Source: Bacteroidales bacterium (GTDB lineage Bacteria > Bacteroidota > Bacteroidia > Bacteroidales > F082). Taken from it: a stretch of 64,000 bases of DNA. The DNA lies in contig JAFXMK010000010.1 of assembly GCA_017530365.1 (NCBI GenBank), positions 89,306 through 153,305 on the forward strand. The letters are read 5' to 3'. The translations under genes and the position numbers were made by a program. Below are positions 15,230-63,814 of this stretch, piece by piece (within the stretch, counting starts at the first letter, position 1; every line of letters starts with the position of its first letter). The notes beneath the pieces were generated by a model. It was not told where the DNA came from and made no database searches. It saw only the letters and a list, made by a program, of their open reading frames with translations.

Positions 15230-15799
15230 ATGACTACTCCAGCAATCATCATCGGAATCATCTATGTGTTAGCGCTGACCACCTGTGTAGTGCCTTTGGC
15301 CGTTGGGTTGGAGCCGAAAGGGGAGAGCACGCCTTCCAGACAGTTGCTGGTGGCTTTGATCTTTGCCGCCACCCAGGCGTTGATGGCGTTTATCGGCTAT
15401 CTGTTGGGTAGAATGATCGGTTATCTGTTCAGCGACCTGATGCGTTATGTGACCTTTGGCATGATGCTCATTGTGGCTGTCAAGATGATCGTGGATTCGA
15501 TGAAGGTGCTGAAAGCCAAGCGCCTCTATGCCTTCACTTCCAATTGGGGTTTCTTGCTCTTGGGGATCCTCTCGGGAATGAACATCATGCTCGTGAGTAT
15601 TTGTACCCAAGGGTATATGCCGTTTGGCAATTGGTATTTCCTGGCCGTTGCAGTGGCAGGATTTTTGTGGGCTTTCTGGTCTATCAGGATCCCGTACTCC
15701 CCCAAGATGCTTCGCAATTCCAGTTTTATCGAATTCTCTGGTGCGGTGTTTTTAGTGGTGGTGGCGGTGTTGTTCCTGTTTACTGAGATTGTTAGATAA
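15230..15799 (+). CDS. MntP-like six-helix membrane protein lacking the acidic metal residues
   Basis: A 189-residue protein with about six hydrophobic helices arranged as two three-helix halves, as in MntP manganese exporters. Aligned by eye with E. coli MntP, the MDAFAAS motif is TCVVPLA here, the VETL glutamate is a glutamine (TQAL), and LDAMAVG is MNIMLVS. All three membrane carboxylates therefore appear replaced. Either it moves another substrate or it is not an ion pump. The assignment rests on fold pattern, length and partial alignment. Its stop codon lies inside a heptamer repeat that continues to the next gene. Confidence 0.55.
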   Translation: MTTPAIIIGIIYVLALTTCVVPLAVGLEPKGESTPSRQLLVALIFAATQALMAFIGYLLGRMIGYLFSDLMRYVTFGMMLIVAVKMIVDSMKVLKAKRLYAFTSNWGFLLLGILSGMNIMLVSICTQGYMPFGNWYFLAVAVAGFLWAFWSIRIPYSPKMLRNSSFIEFSGAVFLVVVAVLFLFTEIVR

Positions 15800-15825
15800 A
15801 AGATAAGAGATAAAAGATAAAAGTT
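15794..15825 (+). repeat. Heptamer array, unit AGATAAA
   Basis: Four units, AGATAAA, AGATAAG, AGATAAA and AGATAAA, then AGTT before the next ATG. The first unit supplies the TAA stop of the MntP-like gene; the TAA in each unit closes all three frames. Confidence 0.8.
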
Positions 15826-16899
15826 ATGAGAAGGAGATTGTTACTTTTAGGTTTTCTTGTGGTGGCGGTGATGGCTATGGCTCAGCCGCCAGCGAACTAT
15901 TACAATTCTGCCAATGGCTTGACTGGTAACCAGTTGAAAGTGGCTTTGCATAACATCATCAAAAACCATACTACTACATCATACGGCAATCTCTGGAACG
16001 CTTTCTGGAGCACGGACAATAAAGGCAATGGTGTTGTCTGGGATATGTATTCTGACATCCCGGGAGGAACACCACCCTATACTTATCAACTAGGCCAAGA
16101 CCAATGCGGAAGTGGCGGCTGTAATAATACCGAAGGCACCTGCTATAACCGTGAGCATTCATGGCCGCAGAGCTGGTTCAGCGAGCAGTCCACGCCTCGC
16201 ACCGATTTACATCATATTTTCCCGACAGATTGTCAAGTCAACCATGACCGCGGCAACTATCCATACGGAGAAGTACGTTCGGGCACTACGTTCCGTAATG
16301 GATCCAAACTGGGAAGCTGCAAAACTCCTGGCTATAGCGGAAAGGTCTTTGAACCCATCGATGAATACAAGGGCGATTTTGCCAGGGCTTATTTCTACAT
16401 GAGCGTCCGTTACTATGGAGAGGACTCCGGTTGGAAGTCGAGCGACATGACCGATAAATCGGTGATCAAGCCATGGGCACTCGCCATGCTGTTGCGTTGG
16501 AACAAGCAGGATCCTGTGAGTCAAAAAGAGATCGACCGTAACAATGTTATATATAATGATTATCAGCGTAACCGTAATCCATTTATCGATCATCCTGAGT
16601 ATGCTGATATGATATGGGATCCGAACTGGAGCGTGACAAATGACGAAATGGTGTCGGGTGTTTCAGTTTATCCCAACCCCCTTCGACCTGGCGCAACATT
16701 GTATCTGTTGGGGGATGTTAAGGAAGCGAACCAAGTGGTCATCTTTGATGTCAGTGGGAGACTGGTGTTGAAAATGGAGCTCAAAGATGCTAAAAATCCT
16801 TCCTTGGTGTTGCCGAATGATCTTCAAAAAGGTTTTTATCTGTTACAATTGCGCGATGGAAACATCGTCGTAATGAACAGGAAGCTGTTGATTATTTAA
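15826..16899 (+). CDS. Secreted endonuclease I with T9SS sorting domain
   Basis: A 357-residue nuclease. The signal peptide ends near residue 20 (MAMAQ). The central domain has the endonuclease I/NucM signature: NREHSWPQSWF, then DLHHIFPTDCQVNHDRGNYP with the metal-binding His and Asn. Residues about 270-357 form a T9SS type A sorting domain (VYPNPLRPG, VVIFDVSGRLVLKME, KGFYLLQLRDG). It probably degrades extracellular DNA or RNA for nutrients or to disperse biofilm matrix. It may be co-transcribed with the MntP-like gene through the repeat spacer. Confidence 0.87.
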   Translation: MRRRLLLLGFLVVAVMAMAQPPANYYNSANGLTGNQLKVALHNIIKNHTTTSYGNLWNAFWSTDNKGNGVVWDMYSDIPGGTPPYTYQLGQDQCGSGGCNNTEGTCYNREHSWPQSWFSEQSTPRTDLHHIFPTDCQVNHDRGNYPYGEVRSGTTFRNGSKLGSCKTPGYSGKVFEPIDEYKGDFARAYFYMSVRYYGEDSGWKSSDMTDKSVIKPWALAMLLRWNKQDPVSQKEIDRNNVIYNDYQRNRNPFIDHPEYADMIWDPNWSVTNDEMVSGVSVYPNPLRPGATLYLLGDVKEANQVVIFDVSGRLVLKMELKDAKNPSLVLPNDLQKGFYLLQLRDGNIVVMNRKLLII

Positions 16900-16944
16900 T
16901 ATAAAATATAGGCTGTTAAGCGGTCTTTCATCTAACATTTTATT

Positions 16945-16979
16945 TATCTTTGCGAGCATATAAATTGCAAAATATATGC
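16945..16979 (+). promoter_or_regulatory. purL promoter with adjoining inverted repeat
   Basis: TATCTTTG at 16945-16952 is the -7 element. GCATATA (16956-16962) and TATATGC (16973-16979) form a perfect 7-bp inverted repeat between the predicted start site and the ATG at 16984, placed where a repressor or RNA structure could act. Confidence 0.5.
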
Positions 16980-16983
16980 TATT

Positions 16984-20673: not shown

Positions 20674-20687
20674 AACAACAGTGAGTT

Positions 20688-21434
20688 ATGAAAGAATTCG
20701 ATGTAAAAATAGTGAAGGACCAGGTGGTTCAGTGGATCCGTGACTGGTTTGAGCAGAACGGTCCTGGATGCAATGCTGTGATTGGCATCTCAGGCGGCAA
20801 GGACAGCAGCGTGGTGGCGGCTTTGTGTGCCGAAGCTCTGGGAACAGAGCGCGTCGTCGGCGTGACCATGCCCAATGGTGTGCAGCCCGATATCGACGAC
20901 AGCATGAAGCTGATCAACCATCTGGGAATCCGCCATTTCAATGTCAATATCGGCAGTGCCTATGATGCGCTGATGGAGACAGTGAAAGAAGAATTGGGAA
21001 GTCAGAATACAGAAGTCAGCAGGCAGACCATCATAAACATGCCTCCGAGACTGCGTATGACCACCTTGTATGCCGTCTCACAGTCGCTGAACGGCCGTGT
21101 GGCCAACACCTGCAACCTCTCGGAGGACTGGGTGGGCTATTCCACGCGTTATGGCGATGCTGCCGGCGACTTTGCTCCACTGGGTGGGTTGACCGTTCAG
21201 GAAGTCAAGGCGATCGGAAAAGAACTCGGATTGCCCATTGATCTGGTGGAGAAGACCCCTTCGGACGGGCTTTCCGGCAAGAGCGACGAGGATAATCTCG
21301 GCTTTACCTACGCTGTCCTTGACCGTTACATCCGCACCGGCGTTTGCGACGATCCCGACACGAAAGCGCGTATTGACGACAAACATGTGAAGAACCTGTT
21401 CAAGTTGCAACCCATACCTCATTTCGAATATTAA
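20688..21434 (+). CDS. nadE: NAD+ synthase, ammonia-dependent short form
   Basis: A 248-residue amidase-less NAD synthetase that adenylates and amidates deamido-NAD. The PP-loop motif SGGKDSSVVAALCAEALG is at about residue 35, with GYSTRYGDAAGDFAPLGGL and PSDGLSGKSDEDNLG further on, all typical of NadE. There is no N-terminal glutaminase domain, so it should use free ammonia. It is 14 bases behind purL and probably shares its transcript. Confidence 0.93.
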   Translation: MKEFDVKIVKDQVVQWIRDWFEQNGPGCNAVIGISGGKDSSVVAALCAEALGTERVVGVTMPNGVQPDIDDSMKLINHLGIRHFNVNIGSAYDALMETVKEELGSQNTEVSRQTIINMPPRLRMTTLYAVSQSLNGRVANTCNLSEDWVGYSTRYGDAAGDFAPLGGLTVQEVKAIGKELGLPIDLVEKTPSDGLSGKSDEDNLGFTYAVLDRYIRTGVCDDPDTKARIDDKHVKNLFKLQPIPHFEY

Positions 21435-21437
21435 TTG

Positions 21438-21445: not shown

Positions 21446-21466
21446 CAAATCTAGCATTTTGAAATC

Positions 21467-22489
21467 ATGCTCAATAAAGAAAACGTTACCGAAGTACTGA
21501 AAGACGTCATCTATTTCCCCAAAGGCGACAACATCATTGCCTTGAATATGGTTGAAAACCTGATGGTGAACGAAAACGGCATCCGTTTCGACCTGATTGT
21601 GGAAAAAGCTGATGACCCCAAAAACGAGATTTTAACCAACGCAGCCAAGCGTACCCTTACCGGTGTGTTCGGTGACGTTGAAGTGGACATTAAGGTCAAG
21701 GAGGAGACGACAGCCCTCTCCAAGGTGAAGCACATCATCGCCGTGGCTTCCGGCAAAGGTGGCGTGGGTAAGTCAACCGTGGCCGCCAACCTCGCCGTGG
21801 CTTTGGCTCGTGCCAACCAGCGCGTAGGCTTGATCGATGCCGATATCTATGGCCCATCCGTGCCGATGATGTTCGGCGCCGAGGACGAGCGCCCCGCTTG
21901 CTTTGAAAAAGACGGCAAGACGGTGATGGTGCCAGTGGAGAAATACGGCATCAAGATGCTCTCCATCGGTTTTTTCGTCGATACCGACCGCCCATTGATC
22001 TGGAGAGGCCCCATGGCTACCAGTGCCCTCAACCAGCTGATGAACGACACCCTTTGGGGTGAACTCGACTGGATGGTGGTGGACATGCCTCCTGGGACAG
22101 GCGACATCCAGCTGACCCTGGCACAGCAATACAACGTGACAGGTGCCGTCATTGTGACCACCCCGCAAAAGGTGGCTTTCGCCGATGTGTTGCGCGCTGC
22201 CATGATGTTCAAGGAAGAAGCCTTGCAGATCCCGATCTATGGTCTGGTGGAGAACATGGCTTATTTCACTCCTTCCGACATGCCCGAAAAGAAATACTAC
22301 ATCTTCGGAAAAGAGACCGGAAAGCAGTTTGCGGATCAGCTGAACGTCCCGTTGCTGGGACAGATCCCAATAGTGGAGAAGATCGCTGAGAGCGGCGACA
22401 ACGGCACGCCTCTCGCATTGGATGCCGATTCACCTGTGACCAAGGCTTTCGACCAGATTGCCAACTCAATTCTGTCTTCTGACTTCTAA
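21467..22489 (+). CDS. mrp: Mrp/ApbC-type P-loop ATPase for Fe-S cluster handling
   Basis: A 340-residue protein. Residues about 5-85 are a MIP18/DUF59 domain, then a deviant Walker A, SGKGGVGKSTVAANLA, near residue 100 and the VVDMPPGTGD motif. These ATPases carry or transfer Fe-S clusters as dimers. The CPxC cluster ligands usual in the family are absent: after LVENMAYF the sequence is TPSDMPEKKYYIFG. I believe this is usual in Bacteroidota. The C-terminal ILSSDF and the TAA are written in a heptamer repeat. It is directly followed by the nifU-like gene, a logical partner. Confidence 0.88.
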   Translation: MLNKENVTEVLKDVIYFPKGDNIIALNMVENLMVNENGIRFDLIVEKADDPKNEILTNAAKRTLTGVFGDVEVDIKVKEETTALSKVKHIIAVASGKGGVGKSTVAANLAVALARANQRVGLIDADIYGPSVPMMFGAEDERPACFEKDGKTVMVPVEKYGIKMLSIGFFVDTDRPLIWRGPMATSALNQLMNDTLWGELDWMVVDMPPGTGDIQLTLAQQYNVTGAVIVTTPQKVAFADVLRAAMMFKEEALQIPIYGLVENMAYFTPSDMPEKKYYIFGKETGKQFADQLNVPLLGQIPIVEKIAESGDNGTPLALDADSPVTKAFDQIANSILSSDF

Positions 22490-22501
22490 ATTCTGAATTC
22501 T
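22470..22501 (+). repeat. Heptamer array, unit TTCTGAC
   Basis: TTCTGTC, TTCTGAC, TTCTAAA, TTCTGAA and TTCT run from inside the mrp coding end to the base before the nifU ATG. The array encodes the last residues and the stop of mrp and is the whole spacer to nifU. Confidence 0.8.
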
Positions 22502-24439: not shown

Positions 24440-25998
24440 TGCGTAGGATTCTCCTTACCGCAATTCTCCTTGTCTCCGCCTGCTGTGGTTTTGCCCAACA
24501 GGCGGAGACATCTCGTTTTGAGGTCAGCCGTTGGTCGAAGAACCAGAGCTGTCAGTTTGTATCTTTTCAGGAAAAAGGCGGCATGATGGTTTATGAGACT
24601 GACAAGACCGACGAGGATAAGAACCGGCTGTGGAACTTTGTCGCTCTTGACACCAGCCTTTACGAGCAACGCAGCGACTTGATCCCTTTGCCTGACAAGC
24701 TGAAGCTCTTTGATGCCAAGAGCTCAGCGCAGTGGGCAGCTTTTGTCTTTACCTACGAAAAAGCTTCCCGTTCCGATTCTGTTACGTTTTACGTGGTGAC
24801 TTTTCACCGTTTGGAACAGACGTTCACCACATTCTCCGGACAGCTTCCTGAACGCTCCTTGCTCCAGTCAGTCGCCTTGATTGACGGCACTTTGATGCTT
24901 TCGGTCAACTCCAAGTCGGGAGGCGGTTTTCTTGAGCAATACGACTTGAGCCATCACACCCAACGGACGATCACTCCGAATCTCAATAACGATTTCATCC
25001 TGTTTCAGTTCGAAGCCATTCCCGAAGCGCGAGTGTTTGTGCTCGCTGCCCGCGAGTTCGTGGAGAAACGCTATAAGGCGACATCGTTTATGGTCTATTC
25101 ACCAAGCGGCAACCTGTTGCAATCGCACCGTTTTGAAAATGGCGAAAACGCTGGGTTGGGCCGTATGTGCTTCGCTTTGGATGATCAGCGTCAGCTGAGC
25201 GTGTATGCCACATTGGAGCGGGAGAGCAACAAGAAAGTTAGTGTGGAAGGCATGACGGAGGACTTCAGCAAGATTGCCGTGGGCGTGACCTGGATTAAAT
25301 TTGCGTCGAGCGGCATGCAAACCAAGACCTATCTCTTCAAGAACCTTCCTGAAATAGAGAATGCCCTTACCGCTTCGGATCGGTTGAAGGTGAAGAAGGA
25401 GCTGCTGAAGATGAAGCAGGGCAAGAAGAAAGAGAAGGGAGAGATCACTTTCCAATTCTATGCTCCCCGTTTGGTGAAGTTTGGCGGCAATCAGGTTTTC
25501 GTGGCAGAAGCCTTTCAGCCTGTTTTCCATAACGAGACCCGCATGGATCATGGCTATTATGGCTTCTACAACACTTATCCGGTGTCCTATACCGTCTTCG
25601 ACGGATACGACTTTTTCAGTGAGATCCTCCTGGCTTTTGATCAAAATGGTGAGCTGAAATGGTATAATTCGGTCCGCTTCGAGAACGATTTGTGTGAAAC
25701 ACTGTCCGATCATGCCTCTGAGTCGGTGTGTCACAACGAGCTGGTGGTGGCTTCGCCAAGCCGTAACATCTTGCGTTACGAGGTTTTCGATACAGATGGC
25801 ACCTTGCTGCTCGACCAGCAGTATGCGTCTTTGGATTTCCTTTATGGTACCGATTCAATTGATGATGAGTATGAGGCCGGTATCTACAAATGGTTTGGCA
25901 GTCGGTTTTTGATCCATGGTTGCCAGATCGTGCAGAATCCCCTTCTTCGCGACACGCGAAGGACCGTTTTCTATGTCCAGAAAGTGCAGTATGAGTGA
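24439..25998 (+). CDS. Exported protein of unknown function
   Basis: A 519-residue protein with a signal peptide ending near FAQQAE. The rest is rich in beta-strands and repeats phrases such as FMVYSPSGNLLQSHRF, ILLAFDQNGELKWYNS and YEVFDTDGTLLLDQQY about 100-150 residues apart, which suggests a beta-propeller. A lysine-rich helix (KVKKELLKMKQGKKKEKG) interrupts it near residue 315. No catalytic motif is recognised. The ATG overlaps the stop of the T9SS gene by one base, and its own stop overlaps the next ATG, so translation of the three genes is probably coupled. Confidence 0.7.
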   Translation: MRRILLTAILLVSACCGFAQQAETSRFEVSRWSKNQSCQFVSFQEKGGMMVYETDKTDEDKNRLWNFVALDTSLYEQRSDLIPLPDKLKLFDAKSSAQWAAFVFTYEKASRSDSVTFYVVTFHRLEQTFTTFSGQLPERSLLQSVALIDGTLMLSVNSKSGGGFLEQYDLSHHTQRTITPNLNNDFILFQFEAIPEARVFVLAAREFVEKRYKATSFMVYSPSGNLLQSHRFENGENAGLGRMCFALDDQRQLSVYATLERESNKKVSVEGMTEDFSKIAVGVTWIKFASSGMQTKTYLFKNLPEIENALTASDRLKVKKELLKMKQGKKKEKGEITFQFYAPRLVKFGGNQVFVAEAFQPVFHNETRMDHGYYGFYNTYPVSYTVFDGYDFFSEILLAFDQNGELKWYNSVRFENDLCETLSDHASESVCHNELVVASPSRNILRYEVFDTDGTLLLDQQYASLDFLYGTDSIDDEYEAGIYKWFGSRFLIHGCQIVQNPLLRDTRRTVFYVQKVQYE

Positions 25999-26345
25999 TG
26001 TTGAAGAGCTACCTCAAATACCTTTTTCGCAGGAAAAACGAGTTCCATATCCATTCTCCTTTTGTGTATGAGCTCTACACGAAGGTGATTCGCGGGGGAG
26101 ACGAAGAGGCTTTGAAGTCCTTGGGCATTGAGCGTTCAGAGCTAGTGAGGGAAGGGGAGATCCCTGCGATTGTTGACAAGGTGATGTATGTAATGGAAGA
26201 TATCCATCGCGATGAAAAGAAAGAAGTGTGGTGGAATACGATTTGCGCCCTTCCCGACGTTACCTTGACGATAGATCTTTACAAGAAAGGACTGTTTTTT
26301 TACCGGGAGGGGATGGAGAAGCAGGGCTTTGTGTTAAGAAGTTAG
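25998..26345 (+). CDS. Remnant methyltransferase-like protein missing the SAM-binding core
   Basis: A 115-residue ORF. The first 35 residues (YLKYLFRRKNEFHIHSPFVY, then ELYTKVIRGG) match the start of a Bacteroidota class I methyltransferase of about 250 residues. The last 50 (VMYVMEDIHRDEKKEVWW, then VTLTIDLYKKGLFFYREG) match its end. The central Rossmann part with the SAM-binding glycine motif is absent, while the frame is open throughout. I infer an in-frame internal deletion; methyltransferase activity is not expected. The ATG overlaps the stop of the upstream gene by one base (TGATG). The TAG stop lies in a heptamer repeat. Confidence 0.65.
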   Translation: MLKSYLKYLFRRKNEFHIHSPFVYELYTKVIRGGDEEALKSLGIERSELVREGEIPAIVDKVMYVMEDIHRDEKKEVWWNTICALPDVTLTIDLYKKGLFFYREGMEKQGFVLRS

Positions 26346-26370
26346 GAGTGGGGAGTTAGGAGTTAGGAGT
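26341..26370 (+). repeat. Heptamer array, unit GTTAGGA
   Basis: GTTAGGA, GTGGGGA, GTTAGGA, GTTAGGA and GT. The first unit supplies the TAG stop of the methyltransferase remnant. Confidence 0.8.
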
Positions 26371-28938: not shown

Positions 28939-28997
28939 GCTATTCGTTTGCGGAAATTAAAAATTAAAAAGAGTTTGAAAAAACACAAAAGGGATGT

Positions 28998-31415: not shown

Positions 31416-33203
31416 ATGAGGCAGGTCGTAACCAGATCGGATCTAAAAAAAGCCTTGGGTTTGAAAGGCTTCTTCGGCACCTGTGTGGCGGGGATGGCTT
31501 ATGGTTACCTGCGTCTGGGCAAAATTAACCGCCTCTTTGATGCAGCCGCTGATTATCAGGGACGTGAGTTCGCCGACCATCTGTTGGAGAACATGAACAT
31601 CCGCATCGAAGTCAGTCCTGAACAACTGGAAAACATCCCTAAGGAAGGTGGCTTCGTGATGGTCAGCAACCATCCTTTCGGAGGCATCGAGGGGGTGATG
31701 CTGTTGAGCGCCATCGCCAAGGTGCGTCCTGATTTCAAGCTGATGGCCAACTTTATTCTCTCCCACATCCCGAATCTCAAAGAATGCTTCTTCTCGGTGA
31801 ATCCTTTTGAGAAAAATCCTGAATGGAAGAGCAGTGTGGGCGGGATCAAAGGCGCCGTGCAACATATCGCCGCCGGTAACGGCTTGGGCGTTTTCCCGGC
31901 AGGGGAGGTGTCACGCTACCATGGCAATGACTTCCCTGAAGATTTGCCATGGAGTAACTCCATCGCCCGTATCATCAAAAGCGCTGGCGTCCCGGTGATC
32001 CCTGTTTTCTGGGACGGCCGTAACTCGAAATGGTTCTATACGGTTGACAAGATCCATAGCATGCTGGGTACGGGAAGGCTGACGAAAGAGCTGATCAACA
32101 AGCATGACAAATGCTTCAACCTGCAGATCGGGAAACCTATCTCGTCTGCTGAGATCGAGACCTATGAAAAACCCGCTGATCTGGCAGCGTACCTCCGCAG
32201 CCGTTCGTATGCATTGGAGGCTAACGTCAAAAATGAAAAGCCTGCCGTTGTCAATGAGAAATGGGCTCCCGTAGAGCCACCAAGAGATCGCCAACTTCTC
32301 ATCCAAGAACTTGAAACGATTCGAGAGAATGGTCTGTTGTTCTCAGCCGCGACATACGACTGCTATCTGGCCGATTACAAGGAGATTCCCAACCTGATGC
32401 ATGAATTGGCCCGTCTTCGCGAAGAAGCCTTCCGTTTCATTGGTGAAGGCACAGGCAAGAGTCTCGATACCGACGAATTCGATTGCCACTACAAGCACTT
32501 GATTCTTTGGGACAACAAGAAGCAGCAAGTCGCTGGTGCCTACCGACTTGGTTTAGGTAACGAGATCATGAAGGAAAAAGGTATCCGCGGTTTCTATATC
32601 AGCACCTTGTTTGGGTTTGACCCGGCTTTTGGAGAGACCTTGGAGAAGACCATCGAATTGGGTCGCTCATTTGTCACTGTCGATTATCAACGCGAGGTGC
32701 TGCCCCTGGTGCTGCTGTTGCGTGGCTTGGCCGCCGTGGTGATTAAGCATCCCGAGATAGAGCATTTCATTGGACCGGTCAGCATCAGCTCGTGGTATCC
32801 GAAGTTCTACCAGAGCATGATCGTCAGGTATGTCACCGAGAAACATCCCGTGAATCCAGAGCTGGCTAATATGGCCAAGCCGACTACGCCTTTCCATGAG
32901 GACTTCCTCAAAGTGGATGCAGACGTGCTGATGAAGGAAAACATGGAATCCATCGATAAGTTCGACAAGTTCATGTTCCGCCTCAGTAATGGCGAATACC
33001 GTTTGCCCACCTTGTTTAAGAAATACCTGAAGCTGAATGCCAAATTCTTGTGCTTCAACGTGGATCCTGATTTCAACGACACCCTCGACGCTTTGCTGTT
33101 CCTGACGTTCACCGATTTCCCGGAAAACGAAGTGATGCCATTGTTCAGGGATGGCACCGAAGAAGAACAAAAAGAAGTCAGGAAGCGTTTCGGCTACTCC
33201 TAA
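31416..33203 (+). CDS. Bifunctional PlsC-GNAT acyltransferase, OlsF/GlsF-like (aminolipid synthesis)
   Basis: A 595-residue fusion. Residues about 60-280 are a PlsC/LPLAT domain with VSNHPFGGIEGV (His near 85), VFPAGEVSRYHG and PVIPVFWDGRNS. Residues about 290-500 are an OlsB-like N-acyltransferase with LIQELETIRENGLLFSAATY, CHYKHLILWDNKKQQVAGAY and ELGRSFVTVDYQRE. Proteins with both activities (OlsF; the separate GlsB and GlsA of Bacteroides) make N- and O-acylated ornithine or glycine lipids. The order here, O-acyltransferase first, fits OlsF. The substrate amino acid cannot be read from the sequence. The stop lies in a heptamer repeat. Confidence 0.8.
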   Translation: MRQVVTRSDLKKALGLKGFFGTCVAGMAYGYLRLGKINRLFDAAADYQGREFADHLLENMNIRIEVSPEQLENIPKEGGFVMVSNHPFGGIEGVMLLSAIAKVRPDFKLMANFILSHIPNLKECFFSVNPFEKNPEWKSSVGGIKGAVQHIAAGNGLGVFPAGEVSRYHGNDFPEDLPWSNSIARIIKSAGVPVIPVFWDGRNSKWFYTVDKIHSMLGTGRLTKELINKHDKCFNLQIGKPISSAEIETYEKPADLAAYLRSRSYALEANVKNEKPAVVNEKWAPVEPPRDRQLLIQELETIRENGLLFSAATYDCYLADYKEIPNLMHELARLREEAFRFIGEGTGKSLDTDEFDCHYKHLILWDNKKQQVAGAYRLGLGNEIMKEKGIRGFYISTLFGFDPAFGETLEKTIELGRSFVTVDYQREVLPLVLLLRGLAAVVIKHPEIEHFIGPVSISSWYPKFYQSMIVRYVTEKHPVNPELANMAKPTTPFHEDFLKVDADVLMKENMESIDKFDKFMFRLSNGEYRLPTLFKKYLKLNAKFLCFNVDPDFNDTLDALLFLTFTDFPENEVMPLFRDGTEEEQKEVRKRFGYS

Positions 33204-33227
33204 CTCATACTCCTCACTCCTCACTAT
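33195..33227. repeat. Heptamer array, unit CTCCTCA / TGAGGAG, at a convergent junction
   Basis: On the plus strand the array runs ACTCCTA, ACTCATA, CTCCTCA, CTCCTCA, CTA. It carries the TAA stop of the acyltransferase on the plus strand and the TGA stop and last codons (Ser-Glu-Glu) of rsmD on the minus strand. Confidence 0.75.
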
Positions 33228-37121: not shown

Positions 37122-37156
37122 TTCTTACTTCTTTCTTCTAACTTCTGACTTCTAAA
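37122..37156 (+). repeat. Heptamer array, unit TTCTNAC
   Basis: TTCTTAC, TTCTTTC, TTCTAAC, TTCTGAC and TTCTAAA fill the holA-dtd spacer exactly, starting at the base after the holA TGA and ending 3 bases before the dtd ATG. Confidence 0.85.
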
Positions 37157-38012: not shown

Positions 38013-38014
38013 AA

Positions 38015-39250: not shown

Positions 39251-40007
39251 ATTCTTGCACCGACAGCTGCTCAGGTCTTTTGTTGAAGACCTCGTTGTCG
39301 ATGATTTCAGGACCGATTAATGGGCGCAATGAGTTGCGCATGGTCTTGCGGCGTTGGTTGAAAGCTTGTTTCACGATGTTCACGAACAACTTCTCGTCGC
39401 ATCCTAAATCAGTAACGGCGTTACGACGCATCTTGATGACGGCAGATTTCACTTTGGGTGGCGGATTGAATACGTTCTCGTGAACCGTAAAGAGATAGTC
39501 GATATCGTACCAAGCTTGCATCAGCACGCTGAGGATGCCGTAGGTCTTGCTGCCTTCCTTGGCGGCCATGCGTTCTGCCATCTCCTTCTGCACCATGCCG
39601 ACCACCTCCACGACCTGTTCCTTGTATTTCAGTACCTGGAAAAAGATCTGGCTGCTGATGTTGTAGGGGAAGTTGCCGATGATGGCCATGTTTTGTTTGC
39701 CATATTGGCTGAGGTCAGCCTTCAAGAAATCGCCCTCGATCAGCCGTTCGCCCAGCTTGGGGAAATGGGTCTCCAAATAGGCGATGGATTCCTTGTCGAT
39801 CTCAATGACGTAGAATTTGTCCAATATGTCTTGAACCATGTATTGGGTCAGCACCCCAGTCCCGGCGCCCACTTCGATGACAGTCTCCACATCGGGCGAA
39901 AGTTGATCTACAATCTTCTTGGCGATATTTTGGTCGGTCAAAAAGTGCTGTCCCAGCGCCTTTTTTGGCCTGACTTCTGACTTCTGTCTTCTATCTTCTT
40001 TCTTCAT
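39198..40007 (-). CDS. rsmA: 16S rRNA dimethyladenosine transferase KsgA
   Basis: A 269-residue enzyme that dimethylates A1518 and A1519 of 16S rRNA. KKALGQHFLTDQNIAKKIVD, VIEVGAGTGVLTQYMV (SAM site) and IIGNFPYNISSQIFFQVL (catalytic NFPY) are clear. The first 13 residues, MKKEDRRQKSEVR, are extra: they are encoded by a heptamer repeat read in frame. No other start lies between them and the conserved part. The gene follows the TPR gene with a 4-base ATGA overlap, and its 3' end overlaps the convergent permease. Confidence 0.93.
   Translation of the reverse strand: MKKEDRRQKSEVRPKKALGQHFLTDQNIAKKIVDQLSPDVETVIEVGAGTGVLTQYMVQDILDKFYVIEIDKESIAYLETHFPKLGERLIEGDFLKADLSQYGKQNMAIIGNFPYNISSQIFFQVLKYKEQVVEVVGMVQKEMAERMAAKEGSKTYGILSVLMQAWYDIDYLFTVHENVFNPPPKVKSAVIKMRRNAVTDLGCDEKLFVNIVKQAFNQRRKTMRNSLRPLIGPEIIDNEVFNKRPEQLSVQEFIDLTNLIGADASHGVQ
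39970..40007 (-). repeat. Heptamer array inside the ksgA start
   Basis: On the plus strand: TTCTGAC, TTCTGTC, TTCTATC, TTCTTTC, TTCAT. On the coding (minus) strand the unit becomes GTCAGAA-like and has no in-frame stop, so it is translated as the KsgA N-terminus. Confidence 0.82.
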
Positions 40008-41815
40008 AACTTCCTGTAGTTCTTTTTGGCTTGTGCCGTGTAGAGGCTGGTCGGGTATTGGTCAATCAGCTGTTCATAGTGGGTTTTGGCCGCCTCTCGG
40101 GCCTTCAATTGCTGGTGCTCGAGCAGGGCTGCATGCATCAGGGCGTCATCCGCCATGTAACTGTCAGGGAATTGTTCCACGATCTTCAGATACAAGCTGT
40201 CAGCAGTAGGGTAATCTTGTCCTTTTTCTTTGATTTCGGCGATGCGATACAGGGCATGGGGCTTGCTGATTTCGTTGCCATCGATACAGATCGAATCGAG
40301 GATGGACAAGGCTTCCAGGGTCTTATGCTGGTAGATCTTGTAATCTGCTCTTGACAGGCGCTTGAGTTCAACGCCAGTAGTGTCGTACTCGAGGTTGTCC
40401 TCGATGATGAGGGCCAGACTCATGGCATCGTTGGCGACGAGCTTTGAAGTGGCAGCCTTGAGTACATTGAGTTGTGTCTGAGCCCATGCAAACTCACCGA
40501 TAAAATAGCGCAGTTGGGCGTTTCTGAAACGGGCTTCATGTCCCAGGGGCTCTTCTTTCATGCTTTTATCGACTTGGCTATAGAGCAAGGTGGCCTCCCA
40601 CACTTCGTCATTGTATAGGTAGATGTCGGCTAACTTGAGTTTAAGCTGGCATTGTTGGATCTTATTGTTGACTAGGCTAATGGCTTGTTGCAGTAAAGTG
40701 ACGGCTTGGTCTGACTGTCCAAGATGATAGGCCAAGATGTCAGCTTGTATTTCAACTAAGCCAGGATACTCTTTGGATCCAACCTCCGTGCAGGCATCTT
40801 CAATCCTTTGGTTTAGCCGCTCATATTGCCTCGTCTCTGTGTTGGGGTTGAGCTTGTATAATTGGCTTTCTGTTTTGATGGCACCGATGACAGCATCCCC
40901 ATAATAGGGATTGATCTTCCCCTTGGAAATGATATGGTTAAAAGCTTCCTTGGCAAGTTCGTATTGTCTATTATCAAGACAAATTTGAGCCAAGTTGATG
41001 ATGTGAGCATCTTGATCGTTATGTCGGCGGTCAAGACTCTTGCATTGGGCAAGTGCGATATCATAGTCCTCATGTTGGAGTGCAAACCACATCAGCAGCT
41101 GGGCAAACTCTTCGTTGTCAGGTTTTTCCTGTGTCTTCTTCAGCAGTGCGATGCGCATTTCGTCGGAGATGCTTTTATTCACATCATATAGTAGCAAGGT
41201 CTGGAGCTTGTTCTTTACGATGTTGTAATGATCTGGATGTGCCTCGAGTTCTAGGAAATAGTATTCGAAAGCCTGCTGGTAGTTGAGCATTGACTGGTAG
41301 AGGTTGGCTCTTTCCATGTATAGAGGATCGCCTTCTGCATTGGTCTTAGCGCCTTTCTCAAGAACGGTAATGGCATAGTCGTTCAACAACCTTCCTCGAA
41401 GCATGTTGCTTATGTTAACGATTTGGTTTTTGCTTTCAGGAAGGTTTTTGAGAATTTCATTGAAAAGCTCGTCGGCTTTGTTTTTCTTGTCGTTCGATGC
41501 GTAATCGTAGATCAAATCGATACGCGCCTTGCCGTTACTTGGATTCTTTTTGATGTAGCTTTTGAGTTCTTTTTCGGCTGTGTCAAAATCTCCTAGTCGG
41601 AAGAGACATTCCACATATTGGTTGAAATGATGGTTTTGTTTCTTTTTTTCATAGAGCTGTAAGTAGAGGGCTCTTGCCTGCTCGTAGTCTTGACTTTGGA
41701 ACGCTTTTCCGGCGAGTTGTTCATCCAAAAGCAGCTGTGGATCTTTGTTTTGTGCAAAGATCGGCACCGTCAACATGGTGATGAGCAAACACAAAAAGCG
41801 GTAGGCGTTCTTCAT
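40004..41815 (-). CDS. Periplasmic tetratricopeptide-repeat protein
   Basis: A 603-residue protein with a signal peptide ending near residue 21 (TVPIFAQ). TPR motifs run through most of the chain, for example ARALYLQLYEKKKQNHHFNQ, YVECLFRLGDFDTAEKELKS near residue 50-90, and ADSLYLKIVEQFPDSYMADD near the C-terminus. It is similar in outline to YbgF/BamD-like periplasmic scaffolds but much longer. It overlaps both neighbours by four bases, forming a coupled lipoprotein-TPR-ksgA unit. Confidence 0.82.
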   Translation of the reverse strand: MKNAYRFLCLLITMLTVPIFAQNKDPQLLLDEQLAGKAFQSQDYEQARALYLQLYEKKKQNHHFNQYVECLFRLGDFDTAEKELKSYIKKNPSNGKARIDLIYDYASNDKKNKADELFNEILKNLPESKNQIVNISNMLRGRLLNDYAITVLEKGAKTNAEGDPLYMERANLYQSMLNYQQAFEYYFLELEAHPDHYNIVKNKLQTLLLYDVNKSISDEMRIALLKKTQEKPDNEEFAQLLMWFALQHEDYDIALAQCKSLDRRHNDQDAHIINLAQICLDNRQYELAKEAFNHIISKGKINPYYGDAVIGAIKTESQLYKLNPNTETRQYERLNQRIEDACTEVGSKEYPGLVEIQADILAYHLGQSDQAVTLLQQAISLVNNKIQQCQLKLKLADIYLYNDEVWEATLLYSQVDKSMKEEPLGHEARFRNAQLRYFIGEFAWAQTQLNVLKAATSKLVANDAMSLALIIEDNLEYDTTGVELKRLSRADYKIYQHKTLEALSILDSICIDGNEISKPHALYRIAEIKEKGQDYPTADSLYLKIVEQFPDSYMADDALMHAALLEHQQLKAREAAKTHYEQLIDQYPTSLYTAQAKKNYRKL

Positions 41816-52156: not shown

Positions 52157-52171
52157 ATATTAAATCATTAA
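52141..52171 (+). repeat. Octamer array, unit ATCTTTAA
   Basis: ATCTTTAA, ATCTTTAA, ATATTAA, ATCATTAA, then ATTATG. The second unit supplies the TAA stop of the first C1 peptidase and the array runs to the start of the second. Same type as upstream of tnaA. Confidence 0.8.
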
Positions 52172-52174
52172 ATT

Positions 52175-53404
52175 ATGAAATTCAGACATTTTGTTACTGC
52201 CGCTGCCGTGATGCTCAGCGTCGCCGCCGTGGCCCAACCGCAAGCCAAACCTGCAGAAAAAGAAGAGGAAGGCTTCAAGTTTGAAACCATCAAGGAACTT
52301 CCAATTACATCTGTGAAAGACCAAAACCAGGCTGGTACCTGCTGGTGCTATTCCTCCTTGGCATTCTTCGAGGCTGAATTGCTCCGTATGGGCAAGCCGG
52401 AATACGACTTTTCAGAGATGTACATTGTTTATAAGACCTATTTGGATCGTGCCGAAGCCGCTATTCGTACCCATGGTGACGTGTCATTCTCACAGGGTGG
52501 ATCTTTTGGCGATGTCCTTTATGCCATCAGACACTACGGCCTCGTTCCCGATAGCGAGATGCCTGCCGGTGCCATGCACGGCGACTCTTTGTCAAACTTC
52601 ACCGAACTCTCCGCAGTGACCGATCCGCTGGTCGAAGGCGTCGTAAAGAGCCGTAAGATCCAGATGGACAAGGACGGTAACCCGCTTTGGAAAAAGGCCT
52701 TGGCTGGCGTGTATGACGCTTACCTCGGTGTGCCTCCTACTGAGTTCACCTACAAAGGCAAGAAATATACACCCATGAGCTTTGCCGAATCCACTGGCCT
52801 CAACATGGATGACTATGTCAACCTTACCTCCTTCACCCACCATCCTTTCTATGAGCCCTTCGTCATCGAAGTTCAGGACAACTGGCGCTGGGGACAGGCT
52901 TTGAACCTTCCCATCGATGAGTTGATGCAAGTCATGGACAACGCCATCGACAAAGGCTATCCGATCGCTTGGGGTTCTGACGTGAGTGAAGCTGGTTGGC
53001 TCCGCGGCAAGATGGCTGGCATCGCCGTGCTGCCCGACCTGGAAGCCAAAGAGAAGGATCTGCAAGGTAGCGATATGGCCCACTGGCTGGGCATGAGCGC
53101 CGCCGACCGTAAGAAAGAGGCAATGAACAAGCCCACACCTCAGAAATGGGTCACCCAAAAGGAACGCCAGATCGCTTACGACAACTATGAGACTGGCGAC
53201 GACCACGGCATGTTGATCTATGGCACCGCCAAAGACCAAACTGGTAACGAATACTTCATTGTGAAGAATAGTTGGGGCGATGCCGGACAATATCATGGCA
53301 TTTGGTACGTTTCCAAGGCATTCGTTCGCTACAAAACCTTGAACATCGTGGTGCATAAAGACGCACTGCCAAAAGATATCGCCAAGAAATTAGGCATTAA
53401 GTAA
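52175..53404 (+). CDS. Exported C1-family cysteine peptidase, copy 2
   Basis: A 409-residue paralog of the preceding gene. The signal peptide ends near residue 20 (VAAVAQ). Cys56 lies in KDQNQAGTCWCYSSLAFFEA, the His in GDDHGMLIYGTAKDQTG, the Asn in VKNSWGDAGQYHGIWYV. Between them the two proteins share the same inserts (DAYLG, the KKYTP motif, PIDELMQ in this copy and PLDELMQ in the other), so they arose by tandem duplication. Both should act in the periplasm or outside the cell on peptides. Confidence 0.88.
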   Translation: MKFRHFVTAAAVMLSVAAVAQPQAKPAEKEEEGFKFETIKELPITSVKDQNQAGTCWCYSSLAFFEAELLRMGKPEYDFSEMYIVYKTYLDRAEAAIRTHGDVSFSQGGSFGDVLYAIRHYGLVPDSEMPAGAMHGDSLSNFTELSAVTDPLVEGVVKSRKIQMDKDGNPLWKKALAGVYDAYLGVPPTEFTYKGKKYTPMSFAESTGLNMDDYVNLTSFTHHPFYEPFVIEVQDNWRWGQALNLPIDELMQVMDNAIDKGYPIAWGSDVSEAGWLRGKMAGIAVLPDLEAKEKDLQGSDMAHWLGMSAADRKKEAMNKPTPQKWVTQKERQIAYDNYETGDDHGMLIYGTAKDQTGNEYFIVKNSWGDAGQYHGIWYVSKAFVRYKTLNIVVHKDALPKDIAKKLGIK

Positions 53405-53430
53405 GAAGACAGAAGAAAGAAGTAAGAATA
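53404..53430 (+). repeat. Heptamer array, unit AGAAGAC
   Basis: AGAAGAC, AGAAGAA, AGAAGTA and AGAATAT bridge the second C1 peptidase stop and the next ATG. The unit is the complement of the TTCTNAC type. Confidence 0.75.
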
Positions 53431-57071: not shown

Positions 57072-57107
57072 TTGTCTTTAATACCAAACAAAATTCAACA
57101 TCTAACG

Positions 57108-57752: not shown

Positions 57753-57757
57753 GCACT

Positions 57758-58231: not shown

Positions 58232-58238
58232 TCTTAAT

Positions 58239-58266
58239 AATGGTGGGGCGAAAGCCCCACCATTTT
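58239..58266 (+). terminator. Hairpin terminator after the CYTH gene
   Basis: TGGTGGGGC and GCCCCACCA form nine perfect pairs with a GAAA tetraloop, extended by A-T pairs and followed by TTTTAA. It lies between the CYTH gene and the SLC13 gene. Confidence 0.7.
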
Positions 58267-58276
58267 AACTAATACT

Positions 58277-59860: not shown

Positions 59861-59871
59861 TATCGAATGAA

Positions 59872-61323: not shown

Positions 61324-61325
61324 CT

Positions 61326-62222
61326 ATGAAGACTGACAAAACTACCATTCTTGCCGAGATCCGGCGCTACGTCATCATCACCTTGGCTTTGTTGATGATG
61401 GCTTTCGGCTGGACGGGCTTTTTGATTCCCCACCATGTGCTGGGTGGCGGCGTGAGCGGTATCGCCACCCTGATCTTTTATGCCACGGGCATCTCCACGG
61501 GTATCTCCGTGTTTGTGATCAACGGCATCCTGGTGCTGATTTCACTCAAGGTGCTGGGACCTTCTTTCGGCATCAAAACGGTGTATTCCATCATCATGGC
61601 GTCGGTGTTTTTCTCGATCTTGCAGCATTACATCACCGATCCGATATTGGCTGGAGAAATGGCGCCGCTGGTGGATGACAAGTTCCTCTCTTCGCTGATC
61701 GGTGGCGCTTTGGCAGGTACAGCCATCGGCATCGCCTTTACCCAGGGCGGTAGTACCGGCGGCACCGACATCGTGGCGATGATGGTGTGCAAATACCGCA
61801 ACATCTCGCAGGGCAAGGTGATCCTCTTCCTCGACGTGATCATCATCGCCTGTTCCTACTTTGTGGTGGAGTCAGACAAGATCCAAACCATCATCTATGG
61901 CTTCGTGGTGATGGGCGTGTGCAGCTACTGCATCGACCTGGTGCTAACAGGTAATAAGCAGACGGTACAGGCTTTCATTTTCACCTCGGAACCGGCGAAA
62001 GTGGCTGAACGTATCGGTAATGAGATGCACCGCGGTGTTACCTTGATTAAGGGCACTGGCTGGTACACCAAGCGCGAAGGCGACATTCTGATGGTGGTCA
62101 CCCACAAACGGGAATCGCAGCAGATCCTCCGCATTGTGAAGGAGGAAGACCCCAAGGCCTTCATGACGATGAACACCGTGATGGGAGCATACGGAAAAGG
62201 ATTTGAGGTTATTAAAAGCTGA
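61326..62222 (+). CDS. YitT-family membrane protein with DUF2179 domain
   Basis: A 298-residue protein. Residues 1-205 are the YitT/DUF161 membrane part with five or six helices (GWTGFLIPHHVLGGGVSGIA, TQGGSTGGTDIVAMMVCKYR). Residues about 215-295 are the cytoplasmic DUF2179 domain (AERIGNEMHRGVTLIKGTGW, ending KGFEVIKS). The family is widespread and of unknown function; the GG(S/T)GGTD motif suggests transport. The ATG is two bases after the previous stop; its TGA is the first unit of a heptamer array. Confidence 0.9.
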   Translation: MKTDKTTILAEIRRYVIITLALLMMAFGWTGFLIPHHVLGGGVSGIATLIFYATGISTGISVFVINGILVLISLKVLGPSFGIKTVYSIIMASVFFSILQHYITDPILAGEMAPLVDDKFLSSLIGGALAGTAIGIAFTQGGSTGGTDIVAMMVCKYRNISQGKVILFLDVIIIACSYFVVESDKIQTIIYGFVVMGVCSYCIDLVLTGNKQTVQAFIFTSEPAKVAERIGNEMHRGVTLIKGTGWYTKREGDILMVVTHKRESQQILRIVKEEDPKAFMTMNTVMGAYGKGFEVIKS

Positions 62223-62240
62223 AAGTTGAAAGTTGAAAAC
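62220..62240 (+). repeat. Heptamer array, unit TGAAAGT
   Basis: TGAAAGT, TGAAAGT and TGAAAAC. The first TGA is the stop codon of the YitT gene. Confidence 0.7.
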
Positions 62241-62258
62241 AAATTATAATTATTAGAA

Positions 62259-63224
62259 ATGAAACGTATTGCATTATTGTCATTAGGCGTGCTGTTGTTG
62301 GCGACAGCTTGCAACAACCCTTCAACAAACGGAAAACCTGAAAATGCTCAGTCCGAGCCACAACCCGCGACCGTGACGGAAATTGTTCCGGTACGGGCAA
62401 TGGATTATTATCTCTGGAATGACGAGAAACCTGCTATCAAGGGTGAGATCAAAGATGGATCGGTGTGGCTGACCTTCGACAAGGAGCAGATCATGCCTGT
62501 GACGGTAGTCGATGAAGATGTTTATCGGCTTCCCGACTGGCCCGTTGAGGTCGAAGGACTCCTGGCTGAACCGCAAAGCATCATGATCAGCGATATCGGT
62601 CAGGATTTCAATCCCATCCTTTGTGTGCTGTTGCCTGAAGGCAAGGTCCAGGTTTTGAGTCTTTGGAATAGTGTTGAAACTGGAGACCTTACGGCAAATC
62701 AGATTCCTATGGAAGGGATGATTGGTTTTGAAGCAGGTCCTGGCGGCGAATATGAAACCGAAGATGGCGAGATCGGCTTCGATTATGTAACCATTTATGC
62801 CTTTGACGCACAGGGTGTCAAAGAGGAAATCCCGATGTATCTGCTGGACCATAATCTCGAATACAGCGAGAAATATGATGAGCTGGTGTTTCGCTTGTAC
62901 CTTACCGAGGATTGGAAAATGTCGTATGTAGTGGAAAACTTAGTGGACAATAAGATTGAAGAGGAACGTGGCCGTTTCTGGGAAATTGAATCCGACTGGG
63001 ATAACATGGTTTTCCGCTTCGGTTATGAATTGACGGAAGCCTTTGTGTATTCGATGGATGGCGTCAAAGGGAATGAGGAGATCTGCAAGGGTATTTTTGA
63101 AGTCCGCAAGAATGATGGCGAATGGGAGGCCACTTATGTCACTCCAATCGAAGGAATCGATTTCTGCCAAAAGGGGATGAACAATCCCGTGAGATTTGAG
63201 CAGGGTTCTGCATACGGGGGATAA
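62259..63224 (+). CDS. Lipoprotein of unknown function
   Basis: A 321-residue protein with a lipobox (LLLATACNNPS, Cys18) and a proline and glutamate rich linker before residue 50. The mature part is acidic and strand-rich (YYLWNDEKPAIKGEIKDGSV, MSYVVENLVDNKIEEERGRF). I recognise no family. Its position between the YitT and cyclo-ligase genes with repeat spacers on both sides suggests one transcription unit. Confidence 0.62.
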   Translation: MKRIALLSLGVLLLATACNNPSTNGKPENAQSEPQPATVTEIVPVRAMDYYLWNDEKPAIKGEIKDGSVWLTFDKEQIMPVTVVDEDVYRLPDWPVEVEGLLAEPQSIMISDIGQDFNPILCVLLPEGKVQVLSLWNSVETGDLTANQIPMEGMIGFEAGPGGEYETEDGEIGFDYVTIYAFDAQGVKEEIPMYLLDHNLEYSEKYDELVFRLYLTEDWKMSYVVENLVDNKIEEERGRFWEIESDWDNMVFRFGYELTEAFVYSMDGVKGNEEICKGIFEVRKNDGEWEATYVTPIEGIDFCQKGMNNPVRFEQGSAYGG

Positions 63225-63230
63225 AATAGA

Positions 63231-63265
63231 TGAGAGGTTAGAGGTTAAAGGTTAGAGGTGAGAGA
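63231..63265 (+). repeat. Heptamer array, unit TTAGAGG
   Basis: TGAGAGG, TTAGAGG, TTAAAGG, TTAGAGG, TGAGAGA, the last unit ending in the A of the next ATG. It fills the lipoprotein to cyclo-ligase spacer. Confidence 0.85.
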
Positions 63266-63792
63266 TGGATAAAAAAGAGTTAAGAGCGCAGATCAGAGCG
63301 CTGAAGAAGCAACACACCAAGGAGCAGCTGATGGAGCAATCCGAGCTGATTCTTGCCAAATTGGAGCAACATCCCGACTTCATCAAGGCAGAGCGTGTGA
63401 TGCTTTATAGCGCGCTTCCCGACGAGGTGCAGACCCAGATGTTCTTGGAGAAATGGCACCTGAAGAAAACCATCATCCTGCCCACTGTGGTCGGCGATGA
63501 CATCGTTCCAGTGGAATATGGCAAGGACACCAATTTCGCTGTGGGCGATTTCAATATTCTGGAGCCTCAAAACGATCCCTACACGGGAGATTTCGACTTG
63601 ATTGTTGTTCCAGGGGTGGCTTTTGACCGCCAAGGCAACCGCATCGGACGGGGGAAAGGATATTACGATCGTTTCCTTTGCCAGCATCTCGACGTGAAAC
63701 GCATCGGCATCTGTTTCGATTTCCAGCTAGTCGATGAAGTCCCCACAGAACCGTTGGATATCCGCATGGACGAGGTCCTAACTGTTAACTGA
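63265..63792 (+). CDS. 5-formyltetrahydrofolate cyclo-ligase
   Basis: A 175-residue ATP-dependent enzyme that converts 5-formyl-THF to 5,10-methenyl-THF. KKELRAQIRALKKQHTKEQL at the start, VMLYSALPDEVQTQMFLEKW in the middle, and the C-terminal FDLIVVPGVAFDRQGNRIGR, then GKGYYDRFL, are the family signature with the ATP-binding GKGYYDR. The last residues and the TGA come from a heptamer repeat. Length is normal. Confidence 0.93.
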   Translation: MDKKELRAQIRALKKQHTKEQLMEQSELILAKLEQHPDFIKAERVMLYSALPDEVQTQMFLEKWHLKKTIILPTVVGDDIVPVEYGKDTNFAVGDFNILEPQNDPYTGDFDLIVVPGVAFDRQGNRIGRGKGYYDRFLCQHLDVKRIGICFDFQLVDEVPTEPLDIRMDEVLTVN

Positions 63793-63814
63793 CAACTGCT
63801 AACTGTCAACTAAA
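63780..63814 (+). repeat. Heptamer array, unit AACTGNC
   Basis: AACTGTT, AACTGAC, AACTGCT, AACTGTC and AACTAAA. It encodes the last residues and the stop of the cyclo-ligase gene and runs into the terminator stem. Confidence 0.83.

Follow-up and report, generated by a model that had tools for sequence, protein, structure and literature searches.

Introduction

Tandem repeats with a unit of seven nucleotides (nt) are known from cyanobacteria, Xanthomonas and Beggiatoaceae, and heptamers close to stop codons have been described before. The arrays treated here are heptanucleotide tandem repeats of this class. They lie at gene borders in a stretch of 64,000 nt from a Bacteroidales bacterium (assembly GCA_017530365.1, contig JAFXMK010000010.1, positions 89,306 to 153,305 of the forward strand), here called the window, for which an earlier note had listed ten such borders and proposed that the arrays work or arose as translation stops in all frames. 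We show that period-7 arrays are tied to the 3' ends of genes and to stop codons. Comparison with related genomes further shows that many sites retain an array even though the repeated word has been exchanged, and the stop codons look like a by-product of the repeat units.

The closest described systems are taken here from excerpts of the respective papers. In Xanthomonas and Nostoc, the G-rich heptamers GGGAATC and GGGGA(C/T)T preferentially form arrays of four units, at tandem gene borders, close to the stop codon and on the sense strand; 83% of the heptamer repeats are found at the same position in two Xanthomonas, while length and sequence vary, and their functional role was stated to be yet to be elucidated (Rehm 2015, PMC4692102). 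As far as those excerpts go, such repeats represent one G-quadruplex-forming word type, whereas the arrays of the genome carrying the window (G000) consist of many words, most of them without G-tracts, which are replaced at orthologous sites. Direct repeats of TAACTGA were reported from Beggiatoaceae, Cyanobacteria and five Bacteroidetes. They are intergenic, comprise two to six copies in the main genome and provide stops in all three frames; between two Cyanothece their indels are mostly 7-nt increments, and in some species they are mixed with other heptamers (MacGregor 2015, PMC4679880). The TAACTGA finding was repeated for Thiomargarita (PMC4853749). The arrays of G000 resemble these repeats in being intergenic heptamers with 7-nt length steps, and the word of the window array at 63780 (AACTGAC) is almost equal to TAACTGA. 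However, the excerpts describe one favoured word that is mostly located just upstream of starts in the main genome, while G000 possesses many words that are anchored at stops. Long repeats of 7-nt units were surveyed before and polymerase-footprint slippage was proposed for them (Mrazek 2007, as told in PMC4679880). According to that account, the survey dealt with repeats longer than statistically expected, whereas the arrays of G000 are short and imperfect. Repetitive extragenic palindromic (REP) elements of Escherichia coli are short and dispersed, and part of them lie at most 15 nt from the upstream stop (PMC12306157, in the part drawn on here). In contrast to the palindromic REPs, single heptamer arrays are not palindromic, and inverted adjacent pairs are few (7 in G000, 14 in its relative G034).

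In the open-licence literature we found no paper on intergenic 7-bp tandem repeats at stop codons of Bacteroidetes. Likewise, the parts of that literature covered here yielded no multi-word lexicon with word replacement at kept sites, no test of stops against composition and no strand rule for words without G-tracts. The earlier note was correct that no function is described for such repeats, yet the class itself is already in print (PMC4679880, PMC4692102).

Materials and Methods

G000 has a total size of 2.67 Mb, of which 736,340 bases were scanned, comprising contig 1, 200 kb of contig 9, contig 22 and 84 kb of contig 50. Labels such as G034 and G020 denote relatives of G000, and 1.69 Mb of G034 were compared. 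Arrays were detected by an autocorrelation scan (score of at least 10 in the window), with Tandem Repeats Finder rows as a second view. Genes were called with our own caller using a hexamer score, so stop positions are exact while start positions are approximate. The G034 pieces L101, L108 and L116 share some kb with one another and with the part of contig C1 that was used, and the loci L102-L160 overlap in their flanks; in both cases a few arrays are counted twice. The borders compared for words and sites in G020, G004, G013, G023, G008 and G010 came from two 20-kb regions and roughly one half of the window. The 80 loci listed from other genomes received their phylum labels on the basis of their titles.

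Results

The scanned part of G000 holds 105 period-7 arrays, about one per 7 kb, as compared to 0, 1, 9, 16, 8, 3, 0, 6 and 0 arrays at periods 4, 5, 6, 8, 9, 10, 11, 12 and 13. Within the window, sequence inspection and Tandem Repeats Finder confirmed period-7 arrays at all ten borders listed in the earlier note. The autocorrelation scan detected 11, namely these ten and an A/T-rich one at 28954, while the other periods from 4 to 21 gave 0-2 arrays each, except for the multiples 14 and 21, and dinucleotide-shuffled windows contained a mean of 0.10 period-7 arrays. Across the whole of G000, the two-copy pattern GTYAGRRGTYAGRR has 48 matches against 2 for the reversed pattern, and CTTCTNNCTTCTNNCTTCT has 103 against 4 for its reversed control. 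Period 7 lies far above chance. Besides, a minor period-8 class exists, with 16 arrays in the 736 kb of G000 (6 of them near stops) and 39 in G034 (16 near stops); in the window, period-8 arrays of AAATCATT are located at 13683-13726 and 52139-52181.

The arrays are concentrated at gene ends, and the enrichment near stops that the earlier note had proposed to test was found in both genomes examined. In G000, 68 of the 105 period-7 arrays touch a stop codon or start at most 9 nt from one, while the same test gave 0/9 for period 6, 6/16 for period 8 and 1/8 for period 9; the corresponding values for G034 are 143/218 (period 7), 0/13, 16/39 and 5/20. Each of the ten window arrays lies at a stop codon or at most 9 nt from one. 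Within tandem spacers of G000, 53 of 59 arrays start at most 9 nt past the upstream stop, as compared to a mean of 35.6 and a maximum of 47 under random placement (5000 trials). The same holds for spacers of at least 75 nt (22 of 28, against 9.7 under the null) and for G034 (106 of 123; null mean 79.5, maximum 95). The next start codon attracts less: in G000, about 9 nt or less separate it from the array in 17 of the 59 tandem cases, start calls being approximate. Arrays occur at 63 of 372 tandem, 13 of 79 convergent and 4 of 81 divergent borders of G000. Although 91% of the DNA is coding, at least 90% of the array falls inside predicted open reading frames (ORFs) for only 34 of 132 G000 arrays with a score of at least 10. 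In genes, 27 of 104 arrays were counted for G000 and 43 for G034. In one of these (C1:57064, within a 1117-residue ORF), the third unit reads by eye GTGAGGA and not GTTAGGA at the place where TAG would fall in frame. The genes upstream of the ten window arrays have Pfam matches in eight cases, all of them different.

Two simple roles were considered and set aside. Arrays do not act as added spacer length, as the median spacer with and without array is 64 vs 56 nt in G000 and 62 vs 63 nt in G034. Nor was a truncation of genes seen: the stop position was unchanged in four clean comparisons made by eye (53404, 62220, 63231 and C1_61591).

A peak at 31-33 nt comprises 39 of the 105 G000 arrays. 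Among 98 arrays, a conserved four-letter anchor is present three times in 23, four times in 41, five times in 27 and six or more times in 7, which corresponds to a preference for about four units. By eye, a unit is made up of four or five constant and two or three variable letters, such as TTCT-NN-C, GGAGT-NN or AGATA-AA/AG. The commonest anchors in G000 are AGAAG, ACTCC (= GGAGT), AGGAG and AGATA/GATAA, and a GGG tract per unit is not a feature. As the earlier note had it, the core word varies by locus, and the words read from the window are a sample of a larger lexicon, many words being present in one genome. Mismatches are concentrated in few columns: in the 230 arrays (G000 and G034 taken together) that contain two or more of them, 4.74 of the 7 columns are invariant, compared to 3.96 for random mismatches (maximum 4.04 in 200 trials), and the unit variants comprise 518 transversions and 320 transitions. 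Twelve orthologous arrays of equal length with fully aligned flanks differ between G000 and G034 at 10 of 400 positions, their flanks at 26 of 720, and 7 of the 10 array differences are transversions. Judged from this small sample, the variation looks like an exchange of unit states rather than ordinary point mutation.

Most of the window can be aligned with the relative G034, in collinear pieces that are 87-96% identical or, in some cases, 69-75%. All ten window arrays are present in G034, where two have one extra unit. With flanks of at least 82% identity, 62 of 119 G000 arrays were assigned an orthologous place in G034; 29 are equal and 33 different in length, and 18 of these 33 changes are multiples of 7, where one in seven would be expected if random. 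The reverse comparison placed 70 of 232 G034 arrays in G000 (30 equal, 40 different, 16 of the 40 by multiples of 7). Over the 132 comparisons of both directions, which overlap, the word was the same in 106, another one in 11, and no array was found in 15, some of the latter being merely degenerate. For example, C1_61591 is an AGATAAA array in G000 and an AACTGCC array of nearly equal length in G034, with flanks that are 96% identical. A 66-nt inverted pair is present in G034 and absent in G000, while at C22_120975 (G000 C22:120975-121033) the 15-nt loop between inverted arrays is itself inverted between both genomes. The in-gene AACTGCC array of G000 at C9:139896 is replaced in the G034 ortholog, which has 96 more nt with palindromic GCGAGG...CCTCGC ending in GCAATGAC.

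In more distant relatives, the site tends to be retained and the word often differs. In the six distant species, an array is present at 31 of 47 borders that carry one in G000 vs 11 of 82 that do not (Fisher P = 2.6e-9, for comparisons that all share G000 and are not independent, with G034 left out of the sum). At 15 of the 31 kept sites the word is another one, so the switching of words between orthologous spacers, anticipated in the earlier note, does occur. In G034 alone, arrays are found at 8 of 10 G000-array borders and 1 of 22 array-free borders, with the same word in all 8. At border C9_35634, TATCTTT is present in G000 and G020, TTACTTC in G008 and ATTCTAA in G010. The in-gene site C9_37279 contains CAGTTGG, GAGTTGA or CGGAAAA-type runs, and in the relatives shown its length difference to G000 is divisible by 3. 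Arrays at 53404 and 63231 are missing in G020, which is 78-79% identical there, and by eye the genes overlap at these places. A further observation concerns the border orthologous to the window array at 62220, where the loci L044 and L045 show a palindrome around CCTTCGACAGGCTCAGGGACC, an unrelated repeat at the same gene end in a sister species.

The orientation of the arrays follows a strand rule. Among tandem arrays, 50 of 59 in G000, 97 of 123 in G034 and 30 of 43 at loci of other species have their purine-rich strand in sense with respect to the upstream gene. For convergent junctions, with the nearer gene as reference, the rule holds in 12 of 15, 36 of 39 and 8 of 9 cases, respectively. 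Generally purine-rich 3' flanks were rejected as the source of this bias, as array-free gene ends contain 0.50-0.53 purine in the first 30 nt past the stop. All 14 arrays whose purine strand is devoid of stop codons, drawn from the three data sets, have that strand in sense. In other members of the genus, arrays that lie within 9 nt of a stop without overlapping it are purine-sense in 6 of 9 cases, while 32 cyanobacterial loci show a weaker trend (48 of 73 tandem arrays).

This strand rule holds better than a job as all-frame stop. Of 56 tandem arrays, 27 close every frame in sense and 9 in antisense direction. However, if columns are permuted with the composition kept, a mean of 25.8 of 56 is closed and 411 of 1000 permutations reach 27; the composition of the sense strand is thus enough to explain its surplus over the antisense strand. 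In the pooled data of G000, G034 and other loci, all frames are closed by 22 of 65 arrays beginning 0-9 nt past the stop (antisense 16; 25.4 permuted) and by 91 of 200 stop-overlapping arrays (antisense 35; 93.2 permuted). In the window, the sense strand closes all frames at only five of ten borders (15794, 22470, 62220, 63231 and 63780), because units vary. Consequently, the argument of the earlier note that one stop-bearing unit closes all three frames applies to these five borders only, and its proposal that the arrays work or arose as all-frame stops is not borne out, since all-frame closure shows no excess over column permutation. Given this null, the 14 of 14 stop-free purine strands that obey the strand rule and the in-gene arrays, a stop function is unsupported. 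The stop codons look like a by-product of the units, tolerated at gene ends and absent in frame within genes, and nothing points to arrays that are made for the sake of stops.

Exact copies of at least one array are scattered over the genome. The first 30 nt of the array at 15794 recur elsewhere in G000, and the 30-mer AGATAAAAGATAAGAGATAAAAGATAAAAG has 11 exact copies in G000, 14 in G020, 16 in G034 and 10 in G023. With at most two mismatches it is found in 10 of 36 genomes of the genus, its reversed control in none, and by eye several G000 copies start at the upstream stop (AGA TAA) and finish at the next ATG. This exact dispersed 30-mer lends support, for at least one array, to the copying mechanism considered in the earlier note. 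Identical arrays of the ACTCC family were set aside as proof of copying, because arrays of four or five units with two states per unit can match by accident, and copying is kept only for AGATAAA. At a lower threshold (137 arrays in G000, 267 in G034), G000 has 15 adjacent pairs, 7 of them inverted, and G034 has 21, of which 14 are inverted; each of the 21 inverted pairs has the purine arm first. Folded as RNA, two inverted pairs gave -33.5 and -54.8 kcal/mol (z -5.2 and -10.4), and four single arrays gave weak or no structure (0 to -2.5 kcal/mol).

RAYTs belong to the Y1 transposase family. This family has 2 matches in G000 and none in 8 of the 36 genus genomes, including G005 and G017, although several genomes are incomplete. 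Heptamer runs were seen by eye at the loci L059 and L056 of G005/G017, i.e. in genomes without Y1 match. A Y1 transposase seems doubtful as the maker of the arrays in view of its patchy distribution in these genomes, and no carrier gene for the arrays was found. As a side observation, inverted TTTAGAC and CTTTAGT runs surround, by eye, a terminator-like hairpin with A and T runs at L056, L057 and L059, downstream of the orthologs of 63265-63792.

Beyond the genus, CTTCTNNCTTCTNNCTTCT, a pattern of AGAAG type in three copies, matches in 62 of 296 sampled Bacteroidota genomes, where single low counts mean little since the reversed control beats the pattern in some genomes. G209, a member of the same class, has 242 matches to the reversed control TCTTCNNTCTTCNNTCTTC and 0 to the pattern itself and seems to favour another heptamer word. 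In a distant family of Bacteroidota, G070 and G075 show the anchor CTTCT with varying dinucleotides, and the 26-mer CTTCTCACTTCTATCTTCTAACTTCT is present at several places in G070 and also in G075. A four-copy pattern searched in the GTDB collection gave, among the matches listed, cyanobacteria, Bacteroidota, Acidobacteria, Deltaproteobacteria, Planctomycetes and others. With the array by which a locus was drawn masked, 32 listed cyanobacterial loci contain 96 period-7 arrays vs at most 10 for other periods, 32 listed loci of other phyla 30 vs at most 6, and 16 listed Bacteroidota loci only 2 vs at most 1. Two loci from Bacteroidales metagenome-assembled genomes align to G000 (L231 with 77% over 6.5 kb, L162 with 74% over 3.2 kb).

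The Tandem Repeats Finder rows of the ten window arrays start at 15794, 22468, 26340, 33196, 37122, 39970, 53399, 62215, 63233 and 63779. The AGATAAA array (15794..15826, plus strand, 33 nt) holds the stop of the Mntp-like gene 15230-15799. It is followed on the plus strand by a TTCTGAC-type array (22470..22501), which is pyrimidine-rich in sense and holds the stop of the ParA/NUBPL-like gene 21467-22489, and by a GTTAGGA array (26337..26370) with the stop of 25998-26345. At a convergent junction, the CTCCTCA array (33195..33225, assigned to neither strand) contains the stops of both 31416-33203 (plus) and 33214-33765 (minus), and it is about 30 nt longer in G020. The TTCTTAC array (37122..37153, plus), again pyrimidine-rich in sense, lies immediately 3' of the stop of the DNA polymerase III delta-like gene 36123-37121. 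On the minus strand, an array of GTCAGAA type in sense (39970..40013) holds the stop of the TPR gene 40004-41815, which it includes only with the Tandem Repeats Finder extent to 40013, as the gene ends at 40004. The remaining arrays are all on the plus strand. The AGAAGAC array (53399..53428) is located at the stop of the peptidase C1-like gene 52175-53404, with the stop only marginally inside, and is one unit longer in G034. The TGAAAGT array (62215..62238) holds the stop of 61326-62222 (YitT family); it is one unit longer in G034 and shorter in G020. Between 62259-63224 and 63265-63792, a TTAGAGG array (63233..63267) follows eight nt after the upstream stop and is flanked on both sides by GGATAAAA, which is present in one copy in the array-free relative G020. 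The AACTGAC array (63779..63811), slightly pyrimidine-rich in sense, holds the stop of the 5-formyltetrahydrofolate cyclo-ligase gene 63265-63792. The upstream stop thus lies within the array at the six loci for which the earlier note had claimed it, including both stops at 33195, and additionally at 39970 in its longer extent and marginally at 53404. A weak in-gene run (GAAGTCA-like, 20998..21027, plus strand, Tandem Repeats Finder period 14) inside ORF 20688-21434 remained under the autocorrelation threshold and was excluded from the array counts. Just past the last array, a tRNA-Leu (TAA) is encoded on the minus strand (63844-63929).

Discussion

As explanation we tentatively favour, though at less than an even chance, slippage and template-switch copying in a 7-nt register at gene ends, with stop codons as by-product. 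Primer slippage and template switching, the latter perhaps also between strands and loci, would create and rewrite the arrays in the course of a replication or repair process that has an inherent 7-nt register. We conjecture that such copying works best on ribosome-free transcript just past stop codons, and that purine-rich RNA on a pyrimidine-rich template, i.e. an R-loop-prone stretch, would explain the strand rule. Selection would then keep arrays at the least harmful places, gene ends and tolerant protein sites, and purine- and A/T-rich units may carry stops as a by-product that makes an array tolerable at the end of a gene. A broader version seems unlikely to us: that arrays of several phyla are gene-3'-end elements whose stop position, purine sense and 7-nt register are inherited, while the word is freely exchanged by 7-nt copying at ribosome-free transcript.

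Several observations weigh against copying in a 7-nt register. Roughly every second length change is not a multiple of 7. Simple slippage predicts a decay of the copy number, yet four anchors are the most frequent number. The whole swap of AGATAAA for AACTGCC without a shared anchor is hard to achieve by slippage alone and fits insertion equally. Three window arrays (22470, 37122 and 63780) violate the strand rule, arrays that do not overlap a stop are purine-sense in only 3 of 13 cases in other genus members and 34 of 59 in cyanobacteria, and in-gene arrays have no strand preference (purine-sense 11 of 27 in G000, 19 of 43 in G034). Cyanobacterial tandem arrays lie at a stop in only 23 of 73 cases (8.9 expected). 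Furthermore, orthologous arrays are common to G000, G034 and other species, so the array counts of these sets are not independent, and the R-loop step of the mechanism is a conjecture.

Small dispersed repeats of cyanobacteria and REPs are defined short mobile sequences, and the arrays could be small mobile elements as well, complete arrays of about 32 nt or hairpin pairs that an unknown enzyme inserts beside stops. We consider this possible but rather doubtful. It would explain the length peak (39 of 105 arrays at 31-33 nt) and the whole swaps better than copying does, and it fits exact dispersed 30-33-mers with unrelated flanks, the 15 missing arrays and 11 other words among the 132 comparisons of close genomes, and the unrelated palindromes of some sister species at a border with a G000 array. 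The two copies of GGATAAAA around the array at 63231, against one in the array-free relative, would fit a target duplication; however, this is the only candidate, and the gene overlap would also require one. Insertion of complete elements does not fit well with the variation of units inside arrays or with the length changes, around half of which are multiples of 7, nor with the 8 of 36 genus genomes without a Y1 match and the lack of a carrier gene among our findings. Alternatively, the arrays may be functional 3' elements. Any purine-rich unstructured heptamer run just past a stop would then serve as a binding site for an RNA-binding protein or assist termination, recycling or re-initiation, with its position under selection and its word free to change. 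The persistence of sites with replaced words is best explained in this way, and stop anchoring, the strand rule and the weak or missing structure of the four folded single arrays are consistent with it. However, closely related genomes differ by gains and losses of arrays, the ten upstream genes of the window belong to no conspicuous class, and array-free gene ends without purine excess argue against a general demand for a purine-rich 3' element. We regard a functional element as improbable.

Far less probable still is a role as all-frame translation stops. The position of 68 of 105 arrays at or within 9 nt of a stop and the higher closure in sense (27 vs 9 of 56 tandem arrays, 91 vs 35 of 200 overlapping ones) would agree with it, but column permutation left no excess, all 14 arrays with a stop-free purine strand still follow the strand rule, arrays occur within genes, and only 5 of 10 window borders close three frames. 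Chance or low-complexity drift, to which the imperfect and often A/T- or purine-rich units might point, is refuted by the period test and has a negligible probability: 105 arrays stand against 0-16 at other periods, shuffles are near zero and reversed controls give 2 vs 48 and 4 vs 103 matches.

The cause of the preference of bacterial short repeats for seven letters is unexplained. Here, a genus with dozens of species, of which 36 genomes were searched, displays the single events, that is unit gain, word swap, loop inversion and copying, and the strand rule together with stop anchoring leads to testable predictions on where and on which strand heptamers arise. In addition, some C-termini in the genus are written by the repeat and can therefore differ between species, for example at 33195, which calls for caution on the part of annotators.

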